Shown one piece after another: positions 6,385 to 40,940 of a stretch of 64,000 bases of DNA. The notes under the pieces were generated by a model that ran no database searches, was not told where the DNA came from, and was given only the letters and a program-made list of their open reading frames with translations. The translations under genes and the position numbers were made by a program. Each line of letters opens with the position of its first letter. The stretch's first letter is position 1. Source of the stretch: Alkalicella caledoniensis (GTDB taxonomy: Bacteria > Bacillota > Proteinivoracia > Proteinivoracales > Proteinivoracaceae); the NCBI RefSeq assembly GCF_014467015.1, contig NZ_CP058559.1, forward strand, positions 2,604,001 to 2,668,000, written 5' to 3'.

Positions 6385-6411
6385 GAAACCTTTTTTCTTT
6401 TAATTCGTCTA
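6385..6411 (+). promoter_or_regulatory. ECF-type promoter-like site A, facing the IS110 element
   Basis: GAAAC (AAC at 6387-6389), 16 bases with a T-run, then CGTCTA at 6406-6411. The layout and spacing match the sites at 17554, 19414 and 40324. There is no intact gene directly downstream: the IS110 element begins within about 160 bases. Prediction from pattern only. Confidence 0.5.
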
Positions 6412-6574
6412 TATAGGTGAAGGGAATTTAAGACTTGTGGTGATAAGTCAAATTAAGTGCAGTGAGAATTCCAACTTATTTGCCTAGAAATATCTAAAAA
6501 AGGCAGCATTCAATTAAGCCTAATGATATTTAGGCGTTTCCGAAAAGGATTACGCATCGAATATTATTCGATAC

Positions 6575-7801
6575 TTATGCACTCCTTTCCGGTGCATAGA
6601 ATTGGTGATTGCGTAGCAGCGCATCCACCATGCGCACAAATTTTCTTGCGGTAAGAACGAGAGCTCTTTTATGTTGATGTTTGGGGACTTCCTTATATTT
6701 TCTAGAATAGTATTTATTATAGACAGGTTCATATCGCGCAACTGAATTGGCAGCTTCAATTAAGTAGTAGCGAAGGTAGTGGTTTCCTGTCTTAGATATA
6801 GTAGTTCTCTCAGACTCAAAATTACCAGATTGTTTTCGCTTCCAGTAAAGGCCAGCATACTTTGCAAGCTTTGCCTCATTTTCAAAGCGTTCAATTTGGC
6901 CTATCTCTGCAATTATACCTGCAGCATAAACAGGGCCAACACCTGGTATGCTTAGCAGAGATTTAGATTCGGGTACTATTTCAAATAACTTTTCAATTGC
7001 CTTACTGATCTCTTTAATTTGATTATTAACAGCTTTAATCATCATGGCGTAAGATGCTAAAACAATATCTACTGAATCCTGCATGACCTTTCCGAGGCGA
7101 TAAGAATCTCTAATAGCTTTACTAATAGATTTTGCAAGTTTTTCTGGATCACTAAAGCGACCTCGACCCTTTTCTTGCAGAAGAGTCACTAGATCCTCTA
7201 AAGGCATATCAGCGATTTCGTCAAGGGTAATAGAATCAGTTAGCAAATGCATCATAGTGGCACCAAATACAGATGTATCCACCTCTTGAGTAAGGGTGTT
7301 ACATTTGTAATAAAGATTTTCTAAAAAATGTTGTTTCATCTCAGTTAACTGACAGATGAGCTGATAACGCGACCTAGTTAACCTTTGTAGGGCCACATAC
7401 TTCTCCTCTTTAATCAAAGAAGTATTGAAGCGGTCAAAGCGGAGAAAGTCTGCGATACGATATGCATCGATCTCATCAGTTTTATCTTCGTCAAAAATCC
7501 CTTTAAATCTAGAGATAGTCTTAGGATTAATTACAGCGACCTCAATGCCTAAAGACTTTAACTCAGGATCTTCAGCTAAGAAAGTCGCTGGATGAAAACT
7601 ATAGACAGAAGTCGATTCCATCCCTACTATGATTCGGTCGTACCTTATGAGCTCATTAAACTGAAAAATATGCTCTTTAATCTTTCTAGCTCCAACTAGA
7701 CTATTGGGGAGCGATACTTTAAGTAAAATATGATCTTCACTATTAAGAAAACAAGTATCAAGTTTTTCAGAACTAACATCAATACCAACAAACAAATTCA
7801 T
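6575..7801 (-). CDS. IS110-family transposase
   Basis: Recombinase of 408 residues with the two expected domains. The N-terminal RuvC-like DEDD domain begins MNLFVGIDVSSEKLD and continues through VGMESTSVY and DKTDEIDAYRIADFL. The C-terminal Transposase_20 domain holds SIPGVGPVYAAGIIAEIG and the KQSGNFE segment that carries the probable catalytic serine. Known members insert and excise a circular DNA guided by an element-encoded bridge RNA. AAAGGAGG precedes the ATG at 7801. The gene is full length with no frameshift, so the element may still be active. Confidence 0.93.
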   Translation of the reverse strand: MNLFVGIDVSSEKLDTCFLNSEDHILLKVSLPNSLVGARKIKEHIFQFNELIRYDRIIVGMESTSVYSFHPATFLAEDPELKSLGIEVAVINPKTISRFKGIFDEDKTDEIDAYRIADFLRFDRFNTSLIKEEKYVALQRLTRSRYQLICQLTEMKQHFLENLYYKCNTLTQEVDTSVFGATMMHLLTDSITLDEIADMPLEDLVTLLQEKGRGRFSDPEKLAKSISKAIRDSYRLGKVMQDSVDIVLASYAMMIKAVNNQIKEISKAIEKLFEIVPESKSLLSIPGVGPVYAAGIIAEIGQIERFENEAKLAKYAGLYWKRKQSGNFESERTTISKTGNHYLRYYLIEAANSVARYEPVYNKYYSRKYKEVPKHQHKRALVLTARKFVRMVDALLRNHQFYAPERSA

Positions 7802-7846
7802 GGATAGGACCTCCTTTCTTATTGAATTTGGAACGGCTTGGATACT

Positions 7847-8094
7847 GAACCCTATCCCTAGTTACCAACAGTCTGGCAACAACCTCGCGTATGAGTATTC
7901 TATACTTGCCATCCATAAGCTGCCCGAAGCTGCTAACATTCGGTATGTAGGGCAAGAGATACAGCTTGTGAGTTTGCAGTACAACTGTTGGCTGGGAGAC
8001 AGTCTTAAAATGCAGTCTTGCTGCAGGGGGAGTAAGCCTTAATCCAGATAGATCCTTTTTCCATATACTAACTATTATCTAGGGAATAGGGCTC
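7847..8094 (-). ncRNA. Candidate IS110 bridge RNA
   Basis: Nested pairing on the minus strand, given in plus coordinates. Outer arms: GAACCCTATCCCTAG (7847-7861) with CTAGGGAATAGGGCTC (8079-8094), one bulge and one G-T. Second helix: CCAACAG (7865-7871) with CTGTTGG (7985-7991). Inside it are two hairpins: TGGCAA/TTGCCA (7874-7911, 26-nt loop) and AAGCTG/CAGCTT (7917-7967, containing CCGAA/TTCGG at 7924-7943). Two looped hairpins upstream of an IS110 transposase fit the known bridge-RNA plan with a target-binding and a donor-binding loop. Which loop is which, and the RNA ends, are not known. Confidence 0.55.
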
Positions 8095-8159
8095 AATATC
8101 CAAGATAAAGTGATTTAATTAAGAATTACAGCTCTAATCCACCGCATTTATTCCATGGT

Positions 8160-8280
8160 CCTGTTGACATGGGGCCCCTGCACCCTCTGGACTCCCTTTT
8201 TTGGGCGGAAGTTGATATATACATATGTATGGCTTCCGCCACCAAGATTTTACCAGAGGGTGCTACCCCATATAAACAGG
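8160..8280. repeat. 121-bp nested imperfect palindrome
   Basis: Paired arms from outside in: CCTGTT/AACAGG (8160, 8275), ATGGGG/CCCCAT (8169, 8266), CACCCTCTGG/CCAGAGGGTG (8181, 8253) and GGCGGAAG/CTTCCGCC (8204, 8233). No gene lies within. The 7802-8375 gap thus holds the IS110 noncoding end, about 65 plain bases, this palindrome, and about 95 AT-rich bases before the next gene. Confidence 0.75.
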
Positions 8281-8375
8281 CTTTCACGGCATAAACGCTA
8301 GTTTAGATTTTAAGAAAAGTTATACTTTATTATTAAATTTGTTATATAAAACTTATTATACGAGGGGGGGTATAG

Positions 8376-8735
8376 ATGAAAAAAAGATACGTTGCAATAG
8401 TGGGTATTACTTTCTTGTCTATATTATTACTAGTTGGGTGTAACTTCGGGGGCAATACTTTTTTTACAATTGAGTTTACCAATAGTTCTGATATGACGAT
8501 GGTGTTAAACGGAACAGTAGTGGGTAACGAGGGTTTTAGCACTAGACAAGGGGTTAACAGGGTGGTTGTCATTAAGGATGACGAGCCTGTTTGGATTGGA
8601 CAGTGGGAATTAGAGGAAGGAACTATTGAAGAGTTTATCACAGCTATTTCCAACGATGGGAGCTGGAAAGTTACACAAACAAAGCAAGGTATAGTAGGTA
8701 TTGAGCTAATAGATCAAGTAGGATCAGATACTTAA
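8376..8735 (+). CDS. Small lipoprotein of unknown function
   Basis: A 119-residue protein with an N-terminal lipoprotein signal: basic MKKR, a hydrophobic core, and lipobox LLVG-C22, so the mature protein of about 98 residues should be lipid-anchored outside the cytoplasmic membrane. The mature part looks all-beta (alternating hydrophobic residues, FFTIEFTNSSDMTMVLNGTVV) and has no further cysteine. I recognise no domain. GAGGGGGGG precedes the ATG. It is isolated between the palindrome and a bidirectional terminator. The ECF-type site A lies 2 kb upstream across the IS110 element, so this may be the gene that site once served (inference). Confidence 0.6.
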   Translation: MKKRYVAIVGITFLSILLLVGCNFGGNTFFTIEFTNSSDMTMVLNGTVVGNEGFSTRQGVNRVVVIKDDEPVWIGQWELEEGTIEEFITAISNDGSWKVTQTKQGIVGIELIDQVGSDT

Positions 8736-17553: not shown

Positions 17554-17580
17554 GTAACTTTTTTCAAAGTCTCACGACTA
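17554..17580 (+). promoter_or_regulatory. ECF-type promoter-like site B
   Basis: GTAAC (AAC at 17556-17558) followed by a T-run, 16 bases, then CGACTA at 17575-17580. It lies 31 bases before the ATG of the first paralogous membrane protein gene. Same layout as sites A, C and D. Confidence 0.62.
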
Positions 17581-17611
17581 TGTAGATGTAAAAGTAATGG
17601 GAGGGGTTTAT

Positions 17612-19399
17612 ATGAAGAAAAAAACTTTATTAGGGATACTGATTTTTGCTATAGTGATCACTTTAACCATAATTGATCCTTTGATATATAGGGATATTAT
17701 AAATGGTATTAGAATTGATAGAATGATTAAATCCCATAGCTTTCAAGAACTACACTTTTCTCTTTTTGAGGAGATGAGTCTTAAAAAGGCCAATGACCTT
17801 CTTCTAAAACATGGAGATGCATTACTAGAGCAGAATCATTATAAAAGTTTGGTATATATAGAGGATTATAACATTGACGGAAATTTAGACTTACTCCTTG
17901 CTGAGGCTAATTATCAGATTTGGGAAAGGAGTTCAATGATAAGTGGTCCCTTTGAAAAGCTAGCTAGTCTTAGATATGCAAATAAGCTGGCCCAAGGAAC
18001 AGTTGATAGGTACTTTGTTCCTGACCTTATATTTCATCTTGGGCTAGGTGAAGAGATATTTAGTAGTCGCCATTACTTAAGTGAAGAGTATGAAACAGTA
18101 TACAATGATTATATAGGCCATGAACTGGCACTGATGATTATTGAACTTATTGAGAGGGATGTCATATACACCTCTGATGCTAAATACTGGTGGGTACCCA
18201 CAGATTTGAATATCCAGGAGAATAAACAAGAAGCTATAGAATACTTATTGGACTTCTTACATGAGGATTCACCAAAAATATATGATAGAACAATACATCA
18301 CATTCTCAATAGTGAAAAAGAAAGCAGCCATGACTCAGTTCTACGCTCATACCTTAAAGAAAATAATATATATGAACAATATATTGGAAAATACATGCTA
18401 CGGAAAAAAAATCCTAGAACAATAATGAACCTAAACCCAGAAATCTATGATAAATTAGCTCAAGTATATCCACAGCTAGATTCCATAAAAGATATGGATA
18501 TTATAACAAATACCTATCAACATATAATTAAAGACGGAGGGCCTTATTTATATATTAAAGGAATTAAATCAACAGAGGAAGATTCAATTTCTGGGTATTA
18601 TAAGATTAACTTAACAGACGGTAGTAGTGAATTTACCCCTTTTGGAGAAAAAAATATCATCTGGCGCCAAGACGGTAAATATGCTATAAATCAAGAACAT
18701 AACCATGACTTTGATAGTGCTGATAGAATGACCGTAGAATCAATAATTGAGATTTATGATGAAAACCTTGAACTAATTGATAAACTAGTATTTGATGAAC
18801 AGTTTTATATGTGGGCTAGATGGGTTGGTGCTGAACTGATATTAGAGGGAGGGGGAGTTAGAAGGGCTTATAAACCGGAAACTGGGGAGCTAAAGAAAGA
18901 TAAATTAGAAATTGACCTTGAAAATATAACAGGCATTGCCGTATCATATTATACTCATGAGGGTGTAGCATCAGAACAAATCTTGCTACCCATAGACCTT
19001 GGCAGAGGTTCAATGGTGTATACCCCAAGCTTCAGATATTTTGGAGAAGATGGTGAACTCATTTATGAAACAGAACAAAATGTAAAAGTTGATTCTATTG
19101 CAGCCAATGAATACATGATTATATACAGGGTATACAAAGAAATCGGATTTTATGTCTATGATTTTAAAGAAGAGAAGCTAAACTTCATTGAAACCACAGC
19201 TGAACCATTGGCCATACATGAAGATGGGATTTATGTCTTGAATTTTTTAGACATAAACTTATCTGTTTTAAGTAAAATGAATATGAGTGGAGAAATAGAA
19301 AAAAAATACAACTATTATAACCCCTTTACTGAGATTAATACCATAGGTAAAGAAGTGGAAACAATGACGGGCAGAGGTAGTCAAAGAACATTGAGATAA
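17612..19399 (+). CDS. Membrane-anchored protein, probable ECF regulon member (paralogue 1)
   Basis: A 595-residue protein I cannot assign to a named family. One N-terminal hydrophobic segment (about 5-22, an uncleaved anchor without lipobox) is followed by a helical region of about 270 residues resembling TPR-like repeats, then a beta-rich half (from about 300) with short strand-turn units like those of a beta-propeller. It is paralogous to the next gene: K-x-G-x-x-L-L-x(4)-Y-x-S around residue 65 here matches about residue 94 there. GGGAGGGG at 17599-17606 fixes the ATG at 17612 rather than the ATG at 17597. An ECF-type promoter-like site lies just upstream. A role at the cell surface is inferred. 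Confidence 0.7.
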   Translation: MKKKTLLGILIFAIVITLTIIDPLIYRDIINGIRIDRMIKSHSFQELHFSLFEEMSLKKANDLLLKHGDALLEQNHYKSLVYIEDYNIDGNLDLLLAEANYQIWERSSMISGPFEKLASLRYANKLAQGTVDRYFVPDLIFHLGLGEEIFSSRHYLSEEYETVYNDYIGHELALMIIELIERDVIYTSDAKYWWVPTDLNIQENKQEAIEYLLDFLHEDSPKIYDRTIHHILNSEKESSHDSVLRSYLKENNIYEQYIGKYMLRKKNPRTIMNLNPEIYDKLAQVYPQLDSIKDMDIITNTYQHIIKDGGPYLYIKGIKSTEEDSISGYYKINLTDGSSEFTPFGEKNIIWRQDGKYAINQEHNHDFDSADRMTVESIIEIYDENLELIDKLVFDEQFYMWARWVGAELILEGGGVRRAYKPETGELKKDKLEIDLENITGIAVSYYTHEGVASEQILLPIDLGRGSMVYTPSFRYFGEDGELIYETEQNVKVDSIAANEYMIIYRVYKEIGFYVYDFKEEKLNFIETTAEPLAIHEDGIYVLNFLDINLSVLSKMNMSGEIEKKYNYYNPFTEINTIGKEVETMTGRGSQRTLR

Positions 19400-19413
19400 A
19401 AAAATGTAGGAAT

Positions 19414-19440
19414 GAAACTTTTTACCCCCTTTTTCGTCTA
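19414..19440 (+). promoter_or_regulatory. ECF-type promoter-like site C
   Basis: GAAAC (AAC at 19416-19418) with a T-run, 16 bases, then CGTCTA at 19435-19440, 39 bases before the TTG start of paralogue 2. A 6-3-6 palindrome ATGTAT-GTT-ATACAT (19443-19457) directly follows, near the expected transcript start. Confidence 0.65.
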
Positions 19441-19479: not shown

Positions 19480-21174
19480 TTGCAACTTTTATTAGAAAAA
19501 CACAAAAAGAAAATAGGTGTATTACTTTGTATTATTGCTTTTACTTTGTTTTTAGGTTATCCCCACATACATTTTATTTATGGAAAAATCCTTTTCAATA
19601 ACGGAAAATACCATAAAGCTATAGGAATTTTAAACAACTGCAACTTGCCTAATCAAGTGAATCCATACCTAGTTAAAGCCTATTTTCAGATAGGAGACTA
19701 CGAAGGGGGGTTACATCAATTGACTGAGGTAAAGACAGAAAGGGATATAATTGATATATTAGAAAAATACGGTTCCTTTCTATTGGACAGGGGAAACTAC
19801 GAAAGTATTATTAAATATATTAACTTAGCTGAAAATGTTTCAGAGGAGTTTAGGGAGATTTTGATTAGTGCTAGCTATAATCAATACCTTGCCAAAGGTA
19901 ATGATAAAGATATTAAAAACGCCATGATTCTTAGAAATATGGACACACACATAGCCGATGAGATAACCATTGCCTATCTAACGGAATTTAAAGATTTTGA
20001 TGGTCTAAAAAAACTCCAACCTTTGGTAAAGCATGAATTAAAGGATATCTACACCGAAGAATTCGCAAGGCTTGTATATACAGACTTTATCAATGTAGAG
20101 CATGACAATATAGAAGAATACATAGAAATAGCACAAGAAAATTATTCTGAAGAAATATACCAAAGGTTCTTAGAATTAGTTGGGGCATATTATTGGAAAA
20201 ATTATGAGTATTTGTTTGACAATGAAGCTTATAAGTACTATGCAACCCTAGGCAGGCTATCCCAAAAATATAATTACACAATAGATAACATTGTTTCACA
20301 CCTGAGAAATCTTGATCAGCAAATCAGTGAAAATTATAAGCAGGTATTAGAGTTAATTCAAGGTGGAAACATGCTCCAGCTCGCCACAACAGATAGTATG
20401 GGCCACAGTGATTTTATCTCATCTGGCAATGGAGAATTTACATACTCTAACTTTCGAAAATTTGACGTTACCTATGGCTATAATCATCAAAGTGGGCAAA
20501 ATATTAAACTTATGGACGAAGTTTTTTTAGAGAAAGTATGGAGCCATGAGAGGGATTACTACTATCAAGTACACTATTTCGAAGGCAAGGATATACTGAA
20601 ATTTTACGACCGCAACCGCAATCTAATCCATGAGTTAGAGCTAGAAATGAGTTATGACCACATGTGGGTGGCTGACAACAAATTATATTATAAATATAGT
20701 CAATACTCATCAGATAGGGGTATAGTTCTAGATGTGTCCACGGGATTAGAACATGAAGCCCCTCAGATATCCAGTTATTCTTTTTTAGATATTCCCAAGA
20801 AAATATCTTTTGTGAACAATGGGTTACAAGAATTTGAAATTGATAAATTAGGTAATGAGCTAATCTATCATCGCTTTAAGGGTGATGAAGTTACACTTGT
20901 GGAACGAAAAAATAGTAGATGGCTACCACAGGTAGGTTTCTACTTTAGTAACTACAACAAAACAACTGAAGTTCAAGACAGCACCTTTATAAATGGCATA
21001 TTCCTTGACTATTGGGATGAGACTATATACGCCTTAATCCCCATAGAAGAAAATTTCCTGCAATTAGTCATGATGGATGATAAGGGAATTATTCAAGATA
21101 CACTACCATTTTACACAACCAACGGCCACACTATGCCCAACATTAGCGCCCCTAGGGGGAAGTTGGGGAAATAA
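19480..21174 (+). CDS. Membrane-anchored TPR-like protein, probable ECF regulon member (paralogue 2)
   Basis: A 564-residue protein of unrecognised family with a single N-terminal membrane segment (about 12-28) and an outside-facing remainder. The first 60 residues after the anchor resemble a TPR unit (FNNGKYHKAIGILNNC; AYFQIGDYEGGLHQL). Helical repeats run to about 280, then a beta-rich, propeller-like half. It starts with TTG at 19480, set by AAGGGGGAT six bases upstream. It has its own ECF-type promoter-like site although it lies only 80 bases behind its paralogue. The stop codon is inside the following terminator hairpin. Function unknown. Confidence 0.7.
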   Translation: MQLLLEKHKKKIGVLLCIIAFTLFLGYPHIHFIYGKILFNNGKYHKAIGILNNCNLPNQVNPYLVKAYFQIGDYEGGLHQLTEVKTERDIIDILEKYGSFLLDRGNYESIIKYINLAENVSEEFREILISASYNQYLAKGNDKDIKNAMILRNMDTHIADEITIAYLTEFKDFDGLKKLQPLVKHELKDIYTEEFARLVYTDFINVEHDNIEEYIEIAQENYSEEIYQRFLELVGAYYWKNYEYLFDNEAYKYYATLGRLSQKYNYTIDNIVSHLRNLDQQISENYKQVLELIQGGNMLQLATTDSMGHSDFISSGNGEFTYSNFRKFDVTYGYNHQSGQNIKLMDEVFLEKVWSHERDYYYQVHYFEGKDILKFYDRNRNLIHELELEMSYDHMWVADNKLYYKYSQYSSDRGIVLDVSTGLEHEAPQISSYSFLDIPKKISFVNNGLQEFEIDKLGNELIYHRFKGDEVTLVERKNSRWLPQVGFYFSNYNKTTEVQDSTFINGIFLDYWDETIYALIPIEENFLQLVMMDDKGIIQDTLPFYTTNGHTMPNISAPRGKLGK

Positions 21175-39070: not shown

Positions 39071-39089
39071 AAAAAAGGGCTATTAGCCC
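39071..39089 (-). terminator. Terminator after the PIG-L gene
   Basis: GGGC-TATTA-GCCC with an A-run on the plus strand (T-run on the minus strand). It begins in the last codons of the deacetylase gene. Confidence 0.7.
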
Positions 39090-39868
39090 ATTGGGAAAGA
39101 ATCAAAATTATGAAACGCCCTAAAAGCTTCTGCATGCCTAAGGTTACTCCCTGATGCAGCATAGCTTCCTAGTTTTTTTACCGTAGAGGAATATAAAGAT
39201 TTTGAGAATCTTAACTGACTTTTGTGTGATAAAACTGCTCGAGTTTTATCTTCTAAAACTTCTGATATGTCAACTAGGACATTGTTTTTTCTACTACCAT
39301 ATAAATATATCTTAGCAGGACTATCCATTTCAGTAGCTAGCTTACATACAGCCTTACCCACTGCAAGATGGTCTTTATGGGCTAGAAACTTTAGTGGAAA
39401 GTTATGATCAAAGGTGAAAACAATATCAGGATTTACCTCATACCATATATTTCTCAGGTCTCGCATCAAACGCTTATAGTTTACTTTCATGTCAGGGTAA
39501 TGTAAGAACTTAAGATTTTGATACCCTAAAACCTTTTGAGCTCTTCTTTGTTCATATTGCCTTACTGATCCCAAATTAGGAATATTGACACCTTTTTCGC
39601 CATCTGTCACGTCTACTACTGTAATATCAAAACCTCTATCTGCAAGAAGTTTTATAGTCCCCCCTGCAAAGAAATCTAAATCATCGGGGTGGGGGGACAG
39701 TGCCAAAACTTTACATGGTTTCTCAAAAATTATATTGGAGGCCTGTGCAGCAAGCTCTGGCTCAACTGCTTTTACTCCTTTTTTTACTATGTTCATAGCT
39801 ACTAGACCAATTATAGAAATTGTTGCCCCTAAACCCAAACCTATGGCTAAATTTTTACTTTGTTTCAT
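39083..39868 (-). CDS. PIG-L family deacetylase
   Basis: A 261-residue zinc-dependent N-acetylglucosaminyl deacetylase-like protein (PIG-L/BshB superfamily). The zinc motif LALSPHPDDLDFFAGG (about 54-69, H-P-D-D) is clear, and the third ligand is probably in FLAHKDHLAVG. A hydrophobic N-terminal helix (about 8-27, NLAIGLGLGATISIIGLVAM) should anchor or export it, so it may act on cell-wall or exopolysaccharide sugars rather than on bacillithiol precursors. GGGTGG precedes the ATG at 39868. It is a single gene with its own terminator. Confidence 0.85.
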   Translation of the reverse strand: MKQSKNLAIGLGLGATISIIGLVAMNIVKKGVKAVEPELAAQASNIIFEKPCKVLALSPHPDDLDFFAGGTIKLLADRGFDITVVDVTDGEKGVNIPNLGSVRQYEQRRAQKVLGYQNLKFLHYPDMKVNYKRLMRDLRNIWYEVNPDIVFTFDHNFPLKFLAHKDHLAVGKAVCKLATEMDSPAKIYLYGSRKNNVLVDISEVLEDKTRAVLSHKSQLRFSKSLYSSTVKKLGSYAASGSNLRHAEAFRAFHNFDSFPMG

Positions 39869-39955
39869 ATATACCACCCTTTAATACTTGATAAATATAG
39901 CTTTTGAAAAAACTTTTCATATTATTCTCCAAAATTAATATAAGAATAATGATTA

Positions 39956-40323: not shown

Positions 40324-40350
40324 GTAACTTTTTTTAAAATCATTCGTCTA
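40324..40350 (+). promoter_or_regulatory. ECF-type promoter-like site D, before the sigma gene
   Basis: GTAAC (AAC at 40326-40328) with a T-run, 16 bases, then CGTCTA at 40345-40350, 26 bases before the TTG start of the ECF sigma gene. Same layout as the sites at 17554 and 19414, suggesting autoregulation. Confidence 0.65.
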
Positions 40351-40376: not shown

Positions 40377-40940
40377 TTGCGAGAGGAGCTTTTAATAGAA
40401 AGTTTTAAACGTGGGGATGAATCTGCCTTCATTGAAATATATGAATTGTATTTTCAAGAAGTGTATAATTTTGTTGCTTACTCTGTCAACGGAGATGTGC
40501 GAGAAGATATTACACAGGATATATTTATGAAGGTTTACAAGAGCATGAGAAAATTTAAAGGAAAGTGTAGTATTAAAACATGGGTTTTTAATATAGCTAA
40601 AAGGACTATTTATGACTGGTATCGACTGAAAAAAAATGTTTTTAATATAGACGATTATGAGAGTCTACTGACTGAAAGGGATACCCCTGAAAAGGTATTT
40701 GAGAAAAAAGAAAGGATATCCTTTTTAGTTCAAGGGCTTAATGATTTGAAGGAAGATCATAAGATGGTTATTTTATTAAGAAAGTTTCATGGTTTTTCAA
40801 TAAAAGAAACTTCAAATATAATGGGATATAGTGAAGGAAAGATAAAAACAATACTACACAGGGGACTAAAGGCTCTAAAGGAAAACCTAGAAAATGACTA
40901 TTTTCAGGAAGGGGGGCAAAATCTAAATGAAAAAATGTAA
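40377..40940 (+). CDS. ECF-type RNA polymerase sigma factor
   Basis: A 187-residue sigma-70 family protein with only regions 2 and 4, as in extracytoplasmic-function sigma factors. Region 2 is DESAFIEIYELYFQEVYNFVAY through DITQDIFMKVYKSM (about 13-65). Region 4 is the helix-turn-helix LNDLKEDHKMVILLRKFHGFSIKETSNIMGYSEGKIKT (about 122-165). An ATG at 40356 is in frame, but it would fall at about the expected transcript start of the site ending at 40350 and has no ribosome site. GGGGGGA at 40364-40370 is six bases before the TTG at 40377, which I prefer. It overlaps the probable anti-sigma gene by 14 bases. Confidence 0.88.
   Translation: MREELLIESFKRGDESAFIEIYELYFQEVYNFVAYSVNGDVREDITQDIFMKVYKSMRKFKGKCSIKTWVFNIAKRTIYDWYRLKKNVFNIDDYESLLTERDTPEKVFEKKERISFLVQGLNDLKEDHKMVILLRKFHGFSIKETSNIMGYSEGKIKTILHRGLKALKENLENDYFQEGGQNLNEKM

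Follow-up and report, generated by a model that had tools for sequence, protein, structure and literature searches.

This study concerned a short, two-part promoter motif in a 64,000-nucleotide stretch of the Alkalicella caledoniensis chromosome (the window; positions 2,604,001-2,668,000 of a single contig of 3,695,371 bases, 3.70 Mb), and its relation to the gene for an extracytoplasmic function (ECF) sigma factor at window position 40377. Sites of the form GWAAC-N16-CGWCTA, the core motif, are very probably promoters read by this sigma factor, and together would define a small envelope regulon. The first-pass annotation of the window had proposed such a regulon, and the inference is well supported in silico, since the sigma gene carries a site of its own in all five family genomes compared, targets recur in relatives, and sites are absent from the eight compared genomes of the class that do not carry the sigma/anti-sigma pair. 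Site and pair together represent a complete, testable ECF regulon in a little-studied family, in which the promoter is defined well enough for targets to be predicted from sequence.

Four exact matches to the core motif were found in the window:
6385..6411, + strand: predicted fourth ECF promoter site, GAAACCTTTTTTCTTTTAATTCGTCTA, exact match
17554..17580, + strand: predicted ECF promoter site, GTAACTTTTTTCAAAGTCTCACGACTA, exact match; GTAAC at 17554-17558, CGACTA at 17575
19414..19440, + strand: predicted ECF promoter site, GAAACTTTTTACCCCCTTTTTCGTCTA; GAAAC at 19414-19418, CGTCTA at 19435
40324..40350, + strand: predicted autoregulatory ECF promoter site, GTAACTTTTTTTAAAATCATTCGTCTA; GTAAC at 40324-40328, CGTCTA at 40345

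At the last three, a T-run follows and exactly 16 bases separate AAC from CG; the coordinates, T-runs and gap before CGACTA or CGTCTA given for them in the first-pass annotation were correct, as was its claim that the same arrangement precedes the sigma gene, while the site at 6385 was absent from its list. The 19414 site begins 15 bases past the stop codon of the gene upstream. Dinucleotide-preserving shuffles of the window (n = 300) gave a mean of 0.04 matches, and none reached four. The whole genome (G000) contains 14 exact matches, 11 of which have the T-run (TTT after the -35 element), and all 11 of these lie between genes or overlap no more than a stop codon, most of them being just upstream of genes for membrane or exported proteins. 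The remaining three (711181, 1555180 and 3449448) all fall within genes and are best read as chance occurrences. The genome-wide scan that had been suggested as a check has, then, located the motif mainly in intergenic DNA ahead of envelope genes, and the alternative outcome named beforehand as refuting it, an equal frequency in coding or random DNA, is contradicted by the position of the T-run sites and by the low expectation per window.

Thirteen genomes of the class were compared, five from the same family (G000-G004, the analysed genome included) and eight others, among them G008. A relaxed pattern, GNAACNTTTN12CGNCTA, matched 11, 6, 10, 5 and 4 times in G000-G004, a total of 36, so that the four relatives add 25 sites to the 11 of G000; the reversed pattern, used as a control, matched 3, 0, 0, 0 and 1 times (total 4). 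No match to the relaxed pattern was found in the eight genomes without the sigma/anti-sigma pair, including G008. Although the pattern leaves variable bases free, 35 of the 36 sites read CGTCTA, the 17554 site being the sole CGACTA, and 35/36 have a T preceding the G of the -35 element. Orthologues of the sigma factor, with 52-63% identity, occur in the four other family genomes, and the autoregulatory site stands upstream of the sigma gene in 5/5 genomes (as a GCAAC variant in G003); the proposed comparison of orthologous upstream regions accordingly found it kept in all four relatives. The motif, its position, its specificity, its conservation and its co-occurrence with the sigma factor were all directly observed. 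AAC and CGT boxes, cotranscription with an anti-sigma factor and autoregulation are hallmarks of the ECF class (PMC8103513), and the 36 conserved predicted sites combine an AAC -35 with a CGT-type -10 element.

G008 holds a relative of the sigma factor with 37% identity, and upstream of that gene CGTCTA is combined, at another spacing, with a GTCAC-like -35, which may mean that this lineage has undergone drift in its promoter code. A gene for a PIG-L family de-N-acetylase (window 39083-39877) lies divergently beside the sigma gene, and a similar neighbour is present in relatives, including G008.

The sigma gene and its partner are arranged as follows:
40377..40940, + strand: ECF sigma factor, 187 aa, TTG start; Pfam Sigma70_r2 and r4, TIGR02937
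40927..42351, + strand: probable membrane anti-sigma factor, 474 aa, overlapping the sigma gene; PEGA, 6.9e-9

The sigma factor consists of only sigma2 (Pfam r2, residues 22-85) and sigma4 (r4, residues 121-169), joined by a short linker. TTG 40377 should be the start codon of its gene, because relatives keep this TTG and because ATG 40356 falls where transcription is expected to begin. Region 2.4 carries a DXXR motif (DWYR), with the same D and R in all four orthologues that were aligned; the G of CGTC is read by the D of this motif in Tt-RpoE1 (PMC3397946). Among the 23 sigma-region-2 matches of the genome are several ECF-like ones, yet an exact site lies upstream of the 40.4-kb sigma gene only and of none of the other 22. 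Two related ECF-like genes (284856 and 2385419) are preceded by GAAAC-N17-CGTTTA, a motif with no further matches in the genome. These two results allow the N16-CGTCTA promoters to be attributed, with good confidence, to the 40.4-kb sigma factor.

Related ECF sigma factors can overlap in specificity, as do SigM, SigW and SigX of Bacillus subtilis, and with several ECF-like genes in the genome another of them might read the sites, the 40.4-kb gene being just one target in a cascade. This is very unlikely, considering that the other sigma-type genes have no exact upstream site, that the two nearest candidates use N17-CGTTTA without other targets, and that the sites are confined to the five genomes with an orthologous sigma/anti-sigma pair. 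Even less probable is that the sites are ordinary housekeeping promoters or an effect of A/T-rich composition. TATAAT or TATA does follow CGTCTA at several sites, but conservation falls on GWAAC and CGTCTA, held at a fixed 16-base spacing, and not on TATAAT itself, and TATA behind CGTC is dispensable in Tt-RpoE1 promoters (PMC3397946). Almost no matches appeared in the reversed-pattern controls and in the eight other class genomes, and the shuffles argue against composition. That the motif is a transcription factor binding site rather than a promoter element is hardly credible: it is strictly directional, its -10-like half lies shortly before ribosome sites at many genes, AAC and CGTC are what is expected for ECF sigma factors, and its presence is tied to an ECF sigma gene.

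Several observations weigh against promoters of an envelope regulon under the 40377 sigma factor. A housekeeping sigma factor could also use the TATAAT-like bases behind CGTCTA at 19414 and 40324, more than 1 kb without a clear gene follows the site at 167,478, an IS110 element intervenes between the 6385 site and the lipoprotein gene at 8376 (see below), and neither Pfam nor NCBIfam has an anti-sigma family that matches the N-terminal segment of the 40927 protein.

The 40927 protein has about 55 cytoplasmic residues, one transmembrane segment, two PEGA domains and a beta-rich C-terminal part, and its orthologues occur in exactly five of the 13 class genomes, the same five as the motif and the sigma orthologue. 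This PEGA-domain membrane protein is the probable anti-sigma factor, because of its gene position and a distribution matching that of the sigma factor; no known anti-sigma domain was recognised in it, so its role is one that we infer. Literature searches returned no paper that links PEGA with sigma or anti-sigma factors. AlphaFold2 models of this protein (pLDDT 56) and of the 19480 protein (pLDDT 61, low confidence) were too weak for fold assignment, and their Foldseek matches were not interpretable. The two overlapping genes would be transcribed together as a sigma/anti-sigma pair and would activate the promoter in front of them. A cell-surface signal, presumably of envelope stress, would relieve the anti-sigma factor, the PEGA and beta-rich part probably lying outside the membrane, and the freed sigma factor would then bind and transcribe a small envelope regulon. 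Its members would be 17612 and 19480 in the window, three clustered relatives at 3.145 Mb, a MoxR-DUF58-transglutaminase operon, a membrane-anchored Big_14 protein, two or three lipoproteins and a short RNA with a terminator.

In this genome the motif stands before the sigma gene itself and about 10 other transcription units, two of which are adjacent in the window:
17612..19399, + strand: predicted target gene, 595 aa, signal anchor and long extracytoplasmic part, from the sequence; ATG with GGAGGGG before it
19480..21174, + strand: predicted target gene, 564 aa, TTG start with AAGGGGG as ribosome site; weak Pfam matches to ANAPC3/TPR

Elsewhere, three anchored proteins are clustered from 3,145,485, with one T-run site before the first gene, and a MoxR-DUF58-transglutaminase operon (Pfam AAA_3, DUF58, Transglut_core) adjoins guaA at 2,193,863 behind another. 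T-run sites also precede genes for predicted lipoproteins at 251,050 and 1,157,884, the gene for a membrane-anchored Big_14 protein at 1,382,986, and, at 569,863, a short terminated stretch without an open reading frame (ORF). Downstream of the 167,478 site are about 1.2 kb of repetitive sequence with no convincing gene. Several of these placements recur in relatives: the MoxR operon beside guaA in G001 and G003, a Big_14-type gene near metK in G001 and G002, and anchored proteins in G001 and G003 all lie behind sites. LytR-CpsA-Psr genes and ABC transporters are further predicted targets in G002 and G004, as is an LRR surface protein in G002.

Pfam gives no family for the 17612 protein. The 19480 protein has a signal anchor, TPR-like helical repeats and a beta-rich C-terminal half, and both proteins appear to share the layout of signal anchor, long helical part and beta-rich end (the low-confidence model covering 19480 only). 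Direct BLASTP between them gave E=0.13, and leave-one-out profiles in a nine-sequence test gave 15 bits for 17612 and 40 bits for 19480. On these scores they are very remote relatives, not clearly paralogous, so that the first-pass description of two paralogous membrane proteins stands only as a very remote relationship. Its statement that each paralogue has its own site applies to 17612 and 19480, and fails for the three-gene cluster at 3.145 Mb, to the proteins of which 17612 is likewise a very remote relative. A single paralogous family embracing all target proteins was considered and rejected, because profiles that leave 17612 out score it at just 13-15 bits, and because the G001 and G003 proteins encoded beside UPF0182, similar in architecture to the window genes, have no detectable sequence similarity to them.

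The system is a newly mapped, well-delimited case of a familiar kind of stress circuit in bacteria. The SigM, SigX and SigW regulons of B. subtilis are alike in their AAC -35 and CGTC-type -10 elements, in an autoregulated sigma gene with a gene for a membrane regulator behind it, and in their envelope targets, and the likeness extends to the LytR-CpsA-Psr gene behind a site in two of the relatives. The system differs from them in that its regulator has PEGA domains, its targets are chiefly signal-anchored helical/beta proteins that lack a family name, and the NCBIfam equivalog cut-offs were not reached (SigX NF007220, the best, 121 against 260 bits; SigM family 105 against 148; SigW 85 against 209). 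In Tt-RpoE1/Tt-TolB of Thermoanaerobacter tengcongensis (PMC3397946), a DXXR ECF sigma factor reads CGTC, and the gene directly behind its own encodes an anti-sigma factor with one transmembrane segment, a short end in the cytoplasm and an extended C-terminal part, a layout like that of the pair here; in contrast to Tt-TolB, the external part of the 40927 protein begins with two PEGA domains, and a regulon conserved across genera is described here. Several protein families without names, the PEGA membrane regulator and the signal-anchored helical/beta proteins, would in this way be tied to an envelope response.

The regulon also offers a candidate sigma-driven small RNA. In 5/5 genomes a site is located downstream of the same radical-SAM gene neighbourhood, and single-strand folding placed a stable hairpin with a T-run within about 45-75 bases after it in all five; a simple terminator scanner detected the hairpin in G001 and G002, and not in G000 or G004. 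No gene follows the short RNA in that direction in G000, G001 and G003, while in G002 and G004 a LytR-CpsA-Psr gene lies 200-340 bases beyond it. The product could be either a small RNA or an attenuating leader, the latter being suggested by the LytR-CpsA-Psr gene behind the terminator in those two relatives. The five RNAs share the word AAAGGG near their starts, which is weak evidence, because a shared word of that length arose in 22 of 2000 shuffled sets and the genomes do not count as independent. Rfam gave no family at this locus or in the window. Tentatively, the circuit may include an RNA arm, in which a conserved sigma-driven RNA, some 70-110 nt long and bearing an unpaired AAAGGG, encoded at the same chromosomal place in three genera, damps envelope protein synthesis under stress; if true, the RpoE-MicA/RybB arrangement would have a counterpart here in a Firmicute. 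The RpoE-dependent small RNAs MicA and RybB of E. coli (PMC8103513) are alike in that a sigma site precedes a short, terminated RNA that contains no ORF; for the ECF-driven yabE antisense RNA of B. subtilis, going by a title in the reference list of PMC3574147, the likeness is a sigma site before a short RNA. Compared with both, the sequence is unrelated and the host here is a Firmicute; Hfq and a role on targets are not part of the likeness. Lysine riboswitches lie near the short-RNA locus in three genomes (stretches L149 4974-5157, L137 7369-7554 and L143 5028-5214).

The predicted promoter at 6385 is separated from a lipoprotein gene by a mobile element:
6430..8368, strand not assigned: IS110-family element, ends set by a second identical copy
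6575-7801, - strand: IS110 transposase, DEDD_Tnp_IS110 2.9e-29
8376..8735, + strand: small predicted lipoprotein, 119 aa, from the sequence

The other identical copy is at 1,360,389-1,362,319. Pfam gives no family for the lipoprotein, the gene for which was probably the original target of the 6385 promoter before the insertion. Within the element, a 159-base stretch (window 8142-8299) recurs in at least eight other places in the genome with 88-89% identity; it folds very stably (z -7.1), has no match in Rfam, and is possibly a non-autonomous mobile repeat.
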